From the NCBI GenBank assembly GCA_027082955.1, contig JALWTA010000039.1:1-41845 (forward strand): a stretch of DNA of 41,845 bases, in the 5' to 3' direction. Under the pieces are notes generated by a model that saw only the letters and a program-made list of their open reading frames with translations, had not been told where the DNA came from and made no database searches. The position numbers were made by a program, and so were the translations under genes. This document shows positions 22,937 to 33,236 of the stretch, piece after piece (within the stretch, counting starts at the first letter, position 1; each line of letters starts with the position of its first letter). This DNA comes from Sulfurovum sp. (GTDB lineage: Bacteria; Campylobacterota; Campylobacteria; Campylobacterales; Sulfurovaceae).

Positions 22937-23650
22937 ATGCGTACTGTTTTAGCGATGATGTTTTTGATGTTTGGGCTTGCTTGTGCCGATACGCTCTCTA
23001 AGAGTAAACAGCTGATTGTCGTACAGACCAAGGGATGGAACGACAACAGCGGCACACTGCAACGCTATGAGAAGGATGCCAAAGGGTGGCACAAGGTAGG
23101 AGAACGCATAGATGTAAGGCTTGGACGCAACGGACTGGGGTGGGGTATAGGGCTGCACCATACGCCCAAAGATGCCAAATATATTAAAAAAGAGGGTGAT
23201 GGCAGATCTCCCGCAGGTATCTTCGCACTTAAACAAGCGTTTGGCTATGCGCCTTTTGTGGTGGACTACCCCTACAAAGTTTACAAAGAGACCGACCACT
23301 GTGTGGATGATGTGCACTCGAAGTACTATAACAAGATCGTCGATTCTACCAAGATCACACCGGACTATCACAGCATGGAGCATATGAAGTTCCCCAAAAA
23401 CTACTACAAGTACGGCATCGTGGTCAACCACAACCACATCGATGAAGATGGTGCCCTGCCGGGAGCAGGTTCGTGTATCTTTTTGCACATCAAAGAGATC
23501 CCCACTGCGGGCTGTACGGTGATGAAGGAGGAGCAGATCAAAGAGATCATCCGGTGGCTAGAGGAGAAAAAGCAACCGTTGTTGCTGCAAGCGCCCCATG
23601 ATGTTAGTAAAGCACTTGCAGAGAACTATTTCTCTTTGAGTTTGGAATAG
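22937..23650 (+). CDS. L,D-transpeptidase-like (YkuD-fold) exported protein
   Basis: A 237-residue protein with a Sec signal peptide (about 1-17). The E-G-D-G-R-S-P-A-G-I-F segment and the terminal H-I ... T-A-G-C-T-V-M carry the H/C catalytic signature of YkuD domains (catalytic Cys near 194). Such enzymes cross-link peptidoglycan or attach lipoproteins in the periplasm. It resembles the standalone YkuD proteins of Campylobacterota that may cut or shape wall peptides. Divergent from the NhaC gene; the 3' end overlaps the convergent hemerythrin-like gene by 25 bp. Confidence 0.8.
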   Translation: MRTVLAMMFLMFGLACADTLSKSKQLIVVQTKGWNDNSGTLQRYEKDAKGWHKVGERIDVRLGRNGLGWGIGLHHTPKDAKYIKKEGDGRSPAGIFALKQAFGYAPFVVDYPYKVYKETDHCVDDVHSKYYNKIVDSTKITPDYHSMEHMKFPKNYYKYGIVVNHNHIDEDGALPGAGSCIFLHIKEIPTAGCTVMKEEQIKEIIRWLEEKKQPLLLQAPHDVSKALAENYFSLSLE

Positions 23651-24057
23651 ACATTTTTTTCTTCAAATTGAATACGTTCTCCAACTGCTTCGACGATTTC
23701 ATTGAATTGTTTAAAAAATGCATCATCTAATGGAACTTCAGGTTTGGAGTAATGGCTTAGAAATTCCATTAGTGCAAGTTTCGTTTTTTTGAAGCTTTGC
23801 ACAAACTCCTTGACCATTCTTTCAGTATTGAAGTCTAAATCTTTGTCATCATGTACCAACTTAAAAAGTTCAATATCTTCATTCATTACATGGTCAACTG
23901 TTAGATCATTAAGTTTTTTGAGGTACTTTTTGGCACCCTCATGGTTATTTTTGGCATACTCTGCCATTACTTTATGTGCCAGATCGACAATCTCTGTGTG
24001 CTCATCATGCCATTTATTGACCAATTTCTTGTTTTTAGATGCAAAAAAATCGAACAT
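23626..24057 (-). CDS. Hemerythrin-like domain protein
   Basis: A 143-residue four-helix protein. W-H17-D-E-H20 in helix A, H56-V-M-N-E60 in helix B and later His/Glu residues suggest a di-iron site of the hemerythrin type, but the last helix lacks the textbook H-x3-H pair, so ligands may be a Glu-rich variant. Such proteins bind O2 or NO or sense iron. AT-rich codon use compared with neighbours. ATG at 24057 follows GAGGAGG; the GTG upstream is part of the SD. Confidence 0.7.
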   Translation of the reverse strand: MFDFFASKNKKLVNKWHDEHTEIVDLAHKVMAEYAKNNHEGAKKYLKKLNDLTVDHVMNEDIELFKLVHDDKDLDFNTERMVKEFVQSFKKTKLALMEFLSHYSKPEVPLDDAFFKQFNEIVEAVGERIQFEEKNVYSKLKEK

Positions 24058-24134
24058 ATTTTCTTTCCTCCTCACTGAAATATAATAATTGTAACATATT
24101 CTATTATATAAAACAATAAATATTTAAAAAATTA

Positions 24135-27416: not shown

Positions 27417-28022
27417 TCAGACATGCTCTTCACACTCTTTTATGATAAGATCGGCACGTTTGATACAGCCATTCTCTTCAAGCTCTTCTATCATCCTTAG
27501 TGTTTTTTCGTAAAGTGCTTCATACTCTGCACTAAAATACGCAAATTTTTTCTGCTCTTTTTTAGCATACCAGTAGGCTGCAGCGATGGAGAGTGCGAAT
27601 AGTCCGTAGATCCACCACTGCCATGCTTTGAGATCAAGCAGAACAATGAAGTATTGCACCGAAAACAGTACAAAGAACTCTACAGAGAAGATGATGACAA
27701 GTGTGGCGCTCTGTTCGAAGTCGAGCGTGTACTTCTCTATCTCACGCAGTCTTGCAAGGTTGACATTGACCGACTTTGCATTCTCTTTGCACCTGTCGTC
27801 AAGCTTATCGGTGTCGATGTCGCGTATGTGAATATTGCTGATGTTGTACTCGACATTGAGCTGCTTGTAAGCTTCGAGAATCTCAGGATGGGTCTTGAGG
27901 ATCTCTACAATCTCATCTTCGCTGAGCTTTTTTTTGCCTGCTGCCTGCTGTACATCCTGTAAAATGAGGTCATACAAACCGACATTTTTGATTTCGAGTG
28001 CGACACGCTCAAGGTGTATCAA
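27417..28022 (-). CDS. Membrane-anchored protein with coiled-coil segments, unknown function
   Basis: A protein of about 201 residues: a helical cytoplasmic N-terminal half (to about 105), two membrane helices (about 108-150) and a Lys/Glu-rich coiled-coil C-terminal tail. TTG at 28022 is the probable start because AAAGGAG stands five bases before it; the frame is open further upstream into the heme-copper gene, which I reject. Located 46 bp downstream of the heme-copper subunit I gene, same strand, so it may belong to that transcript, but function is not deducible. Confidence 0.6.
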   Translation of the reverse strand: MIHLERVALEIKNVGLYDLILQDVQQAAGKKKLSEDEIVEILKTHPEILEAYKQLNVEYNISNIHIRDIDTDKLDDRCKENAKSVNVNLARLREIEKYTLDFEQSATLVIIFSVEFFVLFSVQYFIVLLDLKAWQWWIYGLFALSIAAAYWYAKKEQKKFAYFSAEYEALYEKTLRMIEELEENGCIKRADLIIKECEEHV

Positions 28023-28068: not shown

Positions 28069-29754
28069 CTATTTTGCAAAGGCCGGGTCATCTGCCGGCT
28101 CCAACTCTTCGTCTATGCCATAAGAAGGTGTAGGGTCCTTTGCCGGCATAAAGATACCGACAAGTCCTTTGATCCCTACAGACATGACAATGTTGTAGAG
28201 GAAGATCGCCCATGCTGCAAGCAGCATCGTACCACAGACAGCTGCGAAAATCATCAGCGGATTGAATTCGCCATGCACATAGAGGTGGCGTCTGAGCATT
28301 CCGTCAAGCCCTGCCATTCCCATGAAGGCACCCATACCGATACCACCGATGAGGTGTAGCCAGAAGTGGGCGTTGGAGAGTTTGTGCGAATAGAGCTTGG
28401 TGTTGTTGGTGACAATAGGCCAGAGTACATACACCGCTGAGTAGAGTGTCATGTAGAGACCGACAATAATTGCGATGTGCACGTGTGCACCGATGATCCA
28501 CTGTGTGTTGTGCAGCACACGGTTTAGCCCCATGTCTGCCTGGATGATCCCTGCGGGTACTGCCAGACCGAAGCCTACCAGACCGCCAAGGAGGTATTTG
28601 AGTTCCATTGTCATTTTGAGCGGTCTTGCTTTCCAAAGTGTCACGAGTGTAATGAAAAGTGCAAGTCCCTGTGTGAGCAGTTCGAATGCGGTGACCATCT
28701 CACCGGAGATCAGTTTCATCATTTCAGGCTGCGGCTGATCAGAAAGCAGGTGGTGAGACCATACCATCCATGAAACCAGAAGTTCAAGCATCAGTGCCGC
28801 ACGTGCGACGTTTTCCATGAAGAGCTTCTGACCGGTAATGAGTGTAGCAAGCAGGTACCACGAGCCAGCTACATAGATGAGAACCAGACCGTCAGCAACG
28901 AGGTCGAGCCCCCACCAGAACCAGTTCTTGTAGAGCAGCGCATCGATGGCGTTCATGTCCCAGTGCAGGCCGCCAAGGTCAGCGATGAGATAGACAAGTA
29001 CCAATACCCCGGCGCCTAGAATGACGATAGCATCGAGGAAAGTATCGACTGTACCACGGAAGATGGCGACAACAGGCAGTGCCAGTGCCGGTTCTTTGGA
29101 GTATGGCTGTTTGCCTCTAAGTTTGTTGAAGAGGTTGAGCATACCGTCAATACCAAAACCGGAGATGAGCAGTTCCTTGGTCGTTTTGTCCTTGTGCACG
29201 CCAACTCTTGCAAAAATGGTCGCATAGATATTGTAGATGAAACCAAATGTTCCAAGCATAATGAGTGCCACACCGACGATAAAGACAATGCCGCCCACTT
29301 CACTAAACTGCTTGGTATCAACAGGCAACGGCCAGTAGAGCGTATAGAGCGGTGCGTAGTGCCACGCAAATGCCGCAAACCAAGCCATCGCCGTACCGAC
29401 AGTAATAAGAAGCCATGTCCAGTTGGCAAGTTTGATGCTGTAGAGCGGTTTCTTTGTCAAATACGGCACCAGAAAAGTAAAGGCACCAAATACCAGCTGA
29501 TAGGTTGATCCGAAAATACCGACGATAGGGTGTGCAGTCATGATTGCAAAGAAGTGCTCAGGATGAAAGAACATCTCCGGAATAGGTGCAACTTCTTTTC
29601 CTGTTTCAACCATACGCATGATCATTCCCTCAATGGCAACCAGTCCATAAAACAAAAATGCCATTACAACAGCTCTAAGTGTCACTTTTTGCAGTGCATT
29701 GAGACTGTCCGGATTGAAGTTCGTTCCGTTAATCAGGTTCTCTTTCCAACTCAT
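28069..29754 (-). CDS. Heme-copper oxidase superfamily subunit I, NO-reductase-like (gNOR-type)
   Basis: A 561-residue protein with about 12-14 membrane helices. Heme ligands are intact: H75 in T-A-H-P-I-V-G, and H424-V-H426 in helix X. Two metal-site histidines, H334-H335, are present. The helix-VI position that should be the third His is Asp284 (exactly 50 residues before H334, as His240-His290 in bovine COX), and the cross-linked Tyr position four residues later is Asp288. Loss of that His and Tyr argues against an oxidase. It agrees with NO-reductase-type members known from Campylobacterota (gNOR by memory). ATG at 29754 overlaps the subunit II stop codon; AAGGAGG precedes it. Confidence 0.8.
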   Translation of the reverse strand: MSWKENLINGTNFNPDSLNALQKVTLRAVVMAFLFYGLVAIEGMIMRMVETGKEVAPIPEMFFHPEHFFAIMTAHPIVGIFGSTYQLVFGAFTFLVPYLTKKPLYSIKLANWTWLLITVGTAMAWFAAFAWHYAPLYTLYWPLPVDTKQFSEVGGIVFIVGVALIMLGTFGFIYNIYATIFARVGVHKDKTTKELLISGFGIDGMLNLFNKLRGKQPYSKEPALALPVVAIFRGTVDTFLDAIVILGAGVLVLVYLIADLGGLHWDMNAIDALLYKNWFWWGLDLVADGLVLIYVAGSWYLLATLITGQKLFMENVARAALMLELLVSWMVWSHHLLSDQPQPEMMKLISGEMVTAFELLTQGLALFITLVTLWKARPLKMTMELKYLLGGLVGFGLAVPAGIIQADMGLNRVLHNTQWIIGAHVHIAIIVGLYMTLYSAVYVLWPIVTNNTKLYSHKLSNAHFWLHLIGGIGMGAFMGMAGLDGMLRRHLYVHGEFNPLMIFAAVCGTMLLAAWAIFLYNIVMSVGIKGLVGIFMPAKDPTPSYGIDEELEPADDPAFAK

Positions 29755-30344
29755 TGTTTCCCTCCTTTGTCGCATCCGACCACTTTCATAAAGTGTTTTA
29801 CAAGCATTAGATCTTCTCCCTCTTCATTGTATTGTGCCGGACCTGAGTACTCAGTTGATGTCAAATCAAAATCACCATTGTGATTGAACGTCCAGTAGAT
29901 GTCGTTATTGTGTCCGGGGTCAACCTGCATCTGCAGTACCATCGTACCATCCTGTCTGAAAAGACCAAAGCCGTAGGTCAGGTCATCACTGCTGACATCG
30001 AAAGCGATAGTTTGTCCACACTGTACGATAATAGGCGTTTTGGGAAGACGCCATTTGTGATCCCCAACCTCTATTTTGTAACGAGCATCTGGCTTGGTGT
30101 TATGTCGAGTAATATCTTGCGATACCCATGGGATGGCATTGTAGGTAAAGATATGGTGTCCTACCCCCATAATGACCAAAAATGCCATATATCCGTAGAA
30201 GGGAATCCTTACAATCGATTTGACCTTCTCTTTTCGTCCCAGGTTGTAGCCAAACCACGCTACGATCGAGATGATCATAAAGGCGTAGATGGTATAGACG
30301 ACCCAGTGAAAAGAGAGCAGTTCAAGTGAGTTTGAAAATGTCAT
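29751..30344 (-). CDS. Heme-copper enzyme subunit II lacking the CuA site
   Basis: A 197-residue protein: two membrane helices (about 13-34, 46-64) then a cupredoxin domain of the COX2 type. Aligned to COX2, the CuA ligands are replaced: first His by Y124, the two cysteines by S163 and S167, second His by Q171, although E165 and G168 keep their places. No binuclear CuA can form. Electrons must therefore enter another way, perhaps from quinol or a cytochrome direct to heme b. It is followed by subunit I with an ATGA overlap. A perfect Crp/Fnr palindrome lies 67 bp upstream of the ATG. Confidence 0.8.
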   Translation of the reverse strand: MTFSNSLELLSFHWVVYTIYAFMIISIVAWFGYNLGRKEKVKSIVRIPFYGYMAFLVIMGVGHHIFTYNAIPWVSQDITRHNTKPDARYKIEVGDHKWRLPKTPIIVQCGQTIAFDVSSDDLTYGFGLFRQDGTMVLQMQVDPGHNNDIYWTFNHNGDFDLTSTEYSGPAQYNEEGEDLMLVKHFMKVVGCDKGGKQ

Positions 30345-30382: not shown

Positions 30383-30424
30383 ATTTTATGTGTTTAATCA
30401 TGGAAAATAATTGATTGTGATCAA
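30383..30424 (-). promoter_or_regulatory. Crp/Fnr-type palindrome and -10 element for the heme-copper operon
   Basis: TTGAT-TGTG-ATCAA (30411-30424) is a perfect FNR-type palindrome. A -10 candidate TAAAAT (30383-30388, minus strand) sets the transcript start near 30376, which puts the palindrome centre at -41.5, the classic class II activator position. Which Crp/Fnr-family protein binds is unknown. Confidence 0.65.
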
Positions 30425-32453: not shown

Positions 32454-33236
32454 ATGGATTATTTTAATACTGATTTTTTTGGAAGAGTAGCTTTGCCCTC
32501 TTCTTTAACAGAGATACTTGTATTAGTCAAAGAACATGCTGGTGAACGACGAAATGTTCATTTATGGCGTGGGCAAAGTAATATATCCTGGCAAATACAT
32601 AGTTCTGCCTATAGAAGATTAAAAAGAACACAAAACACTGTTACAGAAAAAAGTATGCAAAGATATGAAGCATATTTATTAAAACATGCAACTCATCAAG
32701 GATATCGCTTTGAAGCTGGTAGAGAGTTGTCAGATTTTGAACTATTGGCAAAACTTCAACATCACGGTGCAGCAACAAGGCTCATTGATTGTTCAAGAAA
32801 TATAATGGCTGCTCTCTGGTTTGCATGTTCTTCTGAACCAGACACACCCGGTTTACTATTTGGTATTCATTCTGATTATTTGGGTGGTAGTGAAAACAAA
32901 CCTGAAATGCGAAAATATAAAGACATTTTCGATGGGATTGAAGGTCTCAATTACCCTCAAACTTGGCAACCACCGATTGTTTCTAAGAGAATTGCAGCAC
33001 AAGGTGCACAATTTCTTTATAGCACAGTAAAAGATAATAAAATGGGTAGCTTAGCAATTGATGAATGTCCAGAAAGCTACATTGCAATTGGTATTTCTCC
33101 CAGTCTAAAAAAACTTGCACTTGAAGAACTTGCAGGCATTTTTGATATTCGCTACCTCACATTATTCCCTGATATCGATGGATTTGGTTATGCAAATAGT
33201 TTTAGGTTTAATGAATATGAGAGTGAGCGGTGGTAA
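32454..33236 (+). CDS. FRG-domain protein
   Basis: A 260-residue protein. The name-giving F/L-W-R-G-Q motif is L-W-R-G-Q (37-41), and L-Q-H-H-G-A-A-T-R-L-I-D-C-S (101-114) with A-A-L-W-F-A completes the typical FRG signature. The domain's activity is not settled; it recurs in mobile and defence-linked loci. Base composition is clearly AT-richer than the neighbours, and a lipoprotein of similar composition plus a mazF remnant follow, so I infer recent acquisition. No SD is obvious. TATAAT sits 32 bp before the ATG. Confidence 0.8.
   Translation: MDYFNTDFFGRVALPSSLTEILVLVKEHAGERRNVHLWRGQSNISWQIHSSAYRRLKRTQNTVTEKSMQRYEAYLLKHATHQGYRFEAGRELSDFELLAKLQHHGAATRLIDCSRNIMAALWFACSSEPDTPGLLFGIHSDYLGGSENKPEMRKYKDIFDGIEGLNYPQTWQPPIVSKRIAAQGAQFLYSTVKDNKMGSLAIDECPESYIAIGISPSLKKLALEELAGIFDIRYLTLFPDIDGFGYANSFRFNEYESERW

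Follow-up and report, generated by a model that had tools for sequence, protein, structure and literature searches.

What does a heme-copper enzyme do when two aspartates stand in its active site and its second subunit holds no CuA ligands? A sequence-only reading of a 41,845-nucleotide stretch of DNA (hereafter the window) from a Sulfurovum-type vent bacterium raised this question for a gene pair at 28069-30344, for which it proposed an NO-reductase-type function and pointed to a similar pattern in the gNOR proteins of Campylobacterota. By sequence, the enzyme is a member of the named gNOR family, itself proposed in the literature. On our data, the locus most likely encodes a quinol-fed NO reductase of this kind, with a 2-His/carboxylate non-heme metal site and acting beside cNOR. 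A conserved third gene belongs to the operon, so that the feature extends downstream of the original pair. Its elements, in window positions, are as follows.

30411-30424, no strand assigned: FNR/DNR-type palindrome TTGATTGTGATCAA, 67-80 bp upstream of the subunit II start.
29751-30344, minus strand: gNOR subunit II, 197 aa, with a CuA-type cupredoxin domain (Thermus CuA profile match, conservation, hydropathy).
28069-29754, minus strand: gNOR catalytic subunit I of the heme-copper superfamily, 561 aa (Pfam COX1, ba3 profile match, AlphaFold2 fold).
29530-29532, minus strand: His75 codon, low-spin heme ligand (codon check, conservation).
28903-28905, minus strand: Asp284 codon, at the helix-VI metal-ligand His position (HMMER alignment).
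28891-28893, minus strand: Asp288 codon, at the catalytic Tyr position (HMMER alignment).
28750-28755, minus strand: His334-His335 codons, remaining metal-B ligands (codon check, conservation).
28477-28485, minus strand: codons from His424 (high-spin heme) to His426 (low-spin heme) (alignment, conservation).
27417-28022, minus strand: third operon gene, a 201-aa two-helix membrane protein directly 3' of subunit I, with a profile limited to gNOR carriers.

The open reading frame of subunit I runs from 28069 to 29775 on the minus strand and overlaps that of subunit II. Translation almost certainly begins at the internal ATG at 29754, because a relative with 97% identity has a stop codon just 5' of that Met; a GGAGG stretch precedes the ATG. 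The residue numbering of the sequence-only reading (H75, D284, D288, H334, H335, H424, H426) corresponds exactly to the resulting 561-residue form, and the codons agree. Subunit I matches Pfam COX1 (5.3e-50), and the NCBIfam oxidase models, CtaD and ccoN included, all score far under their cut-offs; the names that Pfam and NCBIfam offer for it are limited to oxidase subunit I. For both subunits the closest solved relative by sequence is the ba3 oxidase of Thermus thermophilus (subunit I profile match, 2.5e-11). This match was obtained with a profile of more diverse relatives (A2), which was used because one restricted to closer relatives (A3) matched nothing in the PDB at 1e-9. No chain of a qNOR or cNOR was matched in the PDB at E 0.001. 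For subunit I, AlphaFold2 modelled the 12-helix oxidase fold, with bo3 as the top match and caa3 and ba3 also among the best. The model's confidence is low around the active site (pLDDT <50 at residues 271-298 and 310-361), and the model was therefore used for the fold only and not for metal geometry.

Helix VI of subunit I (FWWGLDLVAD) aligns in HMMER, without a gap, to FWWTGHPIAY of T. thermophilus ba3. D284 lies opposite the helix-VI metal-ligand His and D288 opposite the cross-linked catalytic Tyr, which we take to be His233 and Tyr237 in ba3 numbering. His334, His335, His424 and His426 fall on the remaining ligand positions within the aligned stretch, and His75 was placed as a ligand by motif and position. 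No variation was seen at the seven catalytic positions in 101 relatives, a set spanning about 60-98% identity, and the substitutions are therefore not a product of chance or decay. This conservation rules out a decayed oxidase, just as the ungapped ba3 match rules out a misaligned helix VI. Two claims of the sequence-only reading are thereby upheld: that the heme His ligands and the H334-H335 pair are intact (codons, alignment and conservation), and that the two aspartates are positional substitutions. At the same site, the cNOR of this genome reads HLWVE; the carboxylate at +4 is thus common to gNOR and a true NOR, whereas Asp in place of the first His is not. We know of no characterised NOR in which the non-heme metal is coordinated by two His and one Asp.

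Subunit II is predicted from its hydropathy to have two N-terminal transmembrane helices. A profile of 11 subunit II sequences matches the Thermus CuA domain (6pty, E 4.8e-9; 2cua, 2.7e-6) and places Y124, S163, S167 and Q171 opposite the CuA ligands. Codons and profile alignment together bear out the earlier claim that these ligands are replaced while the fold is kept. Among 101 sequences, Y124 is kept in all and S163 in 98 (two T, one P), position 167 is S in 92 and A in nine, and position 171 is variable, with no His seen. With the four examined ligands absent, CuA is very unlikely to be bound. The cupredoxin domain also has invariant motifs, such as EY-x-GP. A search of subunit II found no CxxCH motif, and a sequence check of both subunits found no heme c site.

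These features coincide with gNOR as it has been described. Table A4 of PMC8756737 gives D as its active-site residue and Sulfurimonas, Sulfurovum and Persephonella as its hosts, in line with the match made in the sequence-only reading, and that paper describes the second subunit as having a cupredoxin fold and not heme c. In other papers, gNOR is quinone-oxidising and non-electrogenic, with genes named norGH (PMC8906906), and is reported in Ca. Methylomirabilis (PMC6094997). PMC11388526 counts cNOR, qNOR, bNOR and eNOR as biochemically characterised, and sNOR, gNOR and nNOR as proposed and B-family-related. Our locus shares with norGH the active-site Asp (D288 opposite the ba3 Tyr, 101/101), the two-subunit heme-copper architecture, a cupredoxin-type subunit II (Thermus CuA profile match, no CxxCH) and the host taxa, and quinone dependence would be expected of it too; no feature conflicting with these accounts, as far as they extend, was found. 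A scan of named genomes matched gNOR in 315 stretches. The best 80 of the 315 belong to Sulfurovum, Sulfurimonas, Nitratifractor, Sulfuricurvum, Aliarcobacter and other Campylobacterota or Epsilonproteobacteria, and the nearest named loci among these 80 are from Sulfurovum and Sulfurimonas, at 85-98% identity. A search of plasmids for relatives found none.

Better-known relatives fit less well. cNOR (NorBC) shares the expected substrate and the carboxylate at helix VI +4 (Glu in HLWVE). However, it has three His metal ligands and a heme c subunit, in contrast to the Asp for one His and the CuA-less cupredoxin seen here; it was ruled out by DxxxD rather than HxxxE in helix VI and by the lack of a NorC at the locus, the real cNOR lying on another contig. 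qNOR was ruled out since the enzyme consists of two chains (561 and 197 aa) and not of a single fused chain with a NorC-like domain. E. coli bo3, the top fold match, likewise has a cupredoxin subunit II without CuA but differs in being an O2 reductase with the usual Tyr and three-His CuB. The B-family ba3 oxidase of T. thermophilus differs in its normal CuB, Tyr and CuA.

The genomic distribution of gNOR points to NO metabolism. It occurs in 27 of 249 Campylobacterota genomes (seven families, 12 genera), 24 of which encode NirS and 23 cNOR, compared with 13 of the 222 other genomes in each case (Fisher p about 1e-19 to 1e-21, shared ancestry ignored). The carriers without NirS are G156, G177 and G257, the last of which has NosZ. 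In three genomes of different genera (G235, G049 and G234), gNOR lies inside or beside a cNOR-nirS-heme d1 cluster (nirJ/nirE); at locus L127, models confirmed NirS, NirJ and uroporphyrinogen methyltransferase. G177 and G257, which lack both NirS and cNOR, carry an Rrf2-family regulator gene divergent to gNOR (L132:6992-7402 and L133:7367-7765). Rrf2 is the family of NsrR, and the regulator is possibly NsrR-like; it scores 51.8 bits against the NsrR equivalog model, whose cut-off is 182 bits.

In the window's own genome, NirS, cNOR, NapA and a cbb3 oxidase are all encoded on other contigs, with nirS, norB and norC (a regular cNOR) at L130:9500-14206 on contig C35 of the assembly (G000). gNOR would thus be a second NOR of this genome and not its sole one, and with the cbb3 oxidase O2 reduction is covered elsewhere. 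No nosZ was detected in the genome, which is about 96% complete, and N2O may therefore be its end product. Nearer to gNOR, a few kb downstream, the window encodes a hemerythrin-domain protein (23626-24075, minus strand; Pfam 1.1e-6); proteins with this domain can bind O2 or NO. The plus strand encodes a stand-alone FRG-domain protein at 32454-33236 (Pfam 1.3e-15) and, after it, what may be a small lipoprotein.

The promoter box points in the same direction as the distribution. The palindrome upstream of subunit II is the only perfect TTGAT-N4-ATCAA in the window, where 0.14 would be expected. In 67 of 97 loci, this one among them, a relaxed form (TTGAY-N4-RTCAA) is found 60-95 bp upstream, compared with a mean of 0.036 and at most one in mononucleotide shuffles; the loci are related and hence not independent. 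Relaxed boxes also occur in the nirS/cNOR cluster of the same genome (L130:14215 and 14724). From the box common to both, we infer that gNOR shares its FNR/DNR-type control with nir and nor. Gene context, co-occurrence with NirS and cNOR, and promoter box together lend support to the NO-reductase-type function first suggested from the sequence.

On this basis a catalytic scheme can be proposed. The low-spin heme would be held by H75 and H426 and the high-spin heme by H424, and the non-heme metal by H334 and H335, with Asp284 standing in for the third His. Iron is the typical occupant of such a 2-His/1-carboxylate set, so that the metal is probably FeB, which cNOR and qNOR also use, and not CuB. 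Asp288, at the position of the cross-linked Tyr of oxidases and the catalytic Glu of cNOR, probably serves as a metal ligand or proton supplier. Given the loss of CuA from subunit II, menaquinol would most likely feed its electrons directly into the low-spin heme, the route taken in E. coli bo3. The expected reaction is 2 NO + 2 e- + 2 H+ -> N2O + H2O. The enzyme would work alongside the cytochrome c-dependent cNOR and be induced with the nir/nor genes through an FNR/DNR-family regulator, and the next gene would encode a third membrane subunit or a dedicated assembly factor.

The electrons of such an NO reductase could instead come from a soluble periplasmic carrier, docking either on the CuA-less cupredoxin or at heme b itself. 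Strict conservation of the domain, with its invariant EY-x-GP, suggests that it still has some role, and genes for cNOR, NirS and small cytochromes c are present in this genome or in the common clusters; but neither subunit offers CuA or heme c, and E. coli bo3, which uses quinol, has likewise retained a cupredoxin domain devoid of CuA. PMC8906906 calls gNOR quinone-oxidising. We therefore consider a soluble donor unlikely, and menaquinol is retained in the scheme above.

That the genome already has a cNOR for respiration would suit a detoxifying NO scavenger, or other NO chemistry such as the dismutation proposed for NOD, and NOD is also a heme-copper NOR relative in which one metal-ligand His is replaced. 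According to PMC3413370, however, NOD has a qNOR background in which Asn replaces one metal His and Gln the catalytic Glu, and it has no quinol site; identity with NOD was ruled out by the Asp/Asp pair and the B-family-like background of gNOR. The occurrence of gNOR in denitrifiers with NirS likewise weighs against scavenging or dismutation, which we judge to be improbable. Least credible of all is an unusual enzyme reducing O2 at a modified active site. The heme-copper fold and the ba3, caa3 and bo3 oxidases as closest solved structures speak for it, but the metal-ligand His and the catalytic Tyr are both missing in 101 of 101 sequences, the genome has a regular cbb3 oxidase, and gNOR tracks NirS. 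With D284 and D288 at the first His and Tyr positions, the enzyme lacks the three-His CuB and catalytic Tyr that characterise the A-, B- and C-family O2 reductases. Quinol-fed NO reduction by gNOR remains the reading that we prefer.

For the third gene, the most likely start codon is a TTG after AAAGGAG, which gives 201 aa, the usual length of the family. Wherever the locus has enough sequence, the gene almost always follows subunit I directly; the exceptions are L057 and the more distant L115, L121 and L122. Searched against the 249 Campylobacterota genomes, a profile of the third protein matched 23, all of them gNOR carriers and each beside gNOR, and none of the 222 genomes without gNOR; a more distant copy is also present at the gNOR locus of G234. 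In a more distant gNOR group of about 60% identity (L134, L131 and L136), the gene is absent from the locus. The protein has a very conserved hydrophobic stretch (FSIEFFVLFSVQYFIVLL...) flanked by less conserved soluble parts. It gave no convincing Pfam, NCBIfam or PDB sequence match, its weak Pfam matches differing between members and being taken as chance, and a comparison of its model (pLDDT 75) with the PDB returned nothing at a meaningful E-value.

The simplest reading of this pattern is that the 201-aa protein is a dedicated gNOR subunit or assembly factor. A more specific version, to which we give somewhat less than an even chance, is that gNOR of Campylobacterota has more than two subunits, the 201-aa protein being a dedicated third (for example, part of quinol or proton entry), and that two His and one Asp coordinate the non-heme metal of the enzyme. 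The sections on gNOR in the literature cited here contain no mention of the third gene or the promoter box. Both are new here, as are the nirS co-occurrence and the gene-cluster context; the third gene and the regulon link are most worth pursuing.

Taken together, we infer from gene context and promoter sequence that gNOR is tied to the denitrification regulon and that its unit comprises three genes. The invariant Asp pair in place of His and Tyr makes the metal and acid requirements of an NO reductase accessible to mutation. To judge by the 315 stretches matched in one genome scan, gNOR is widespread among the Campylobacterota of vents and sediments, where it would be a source of N2O if the proposed activity is true.
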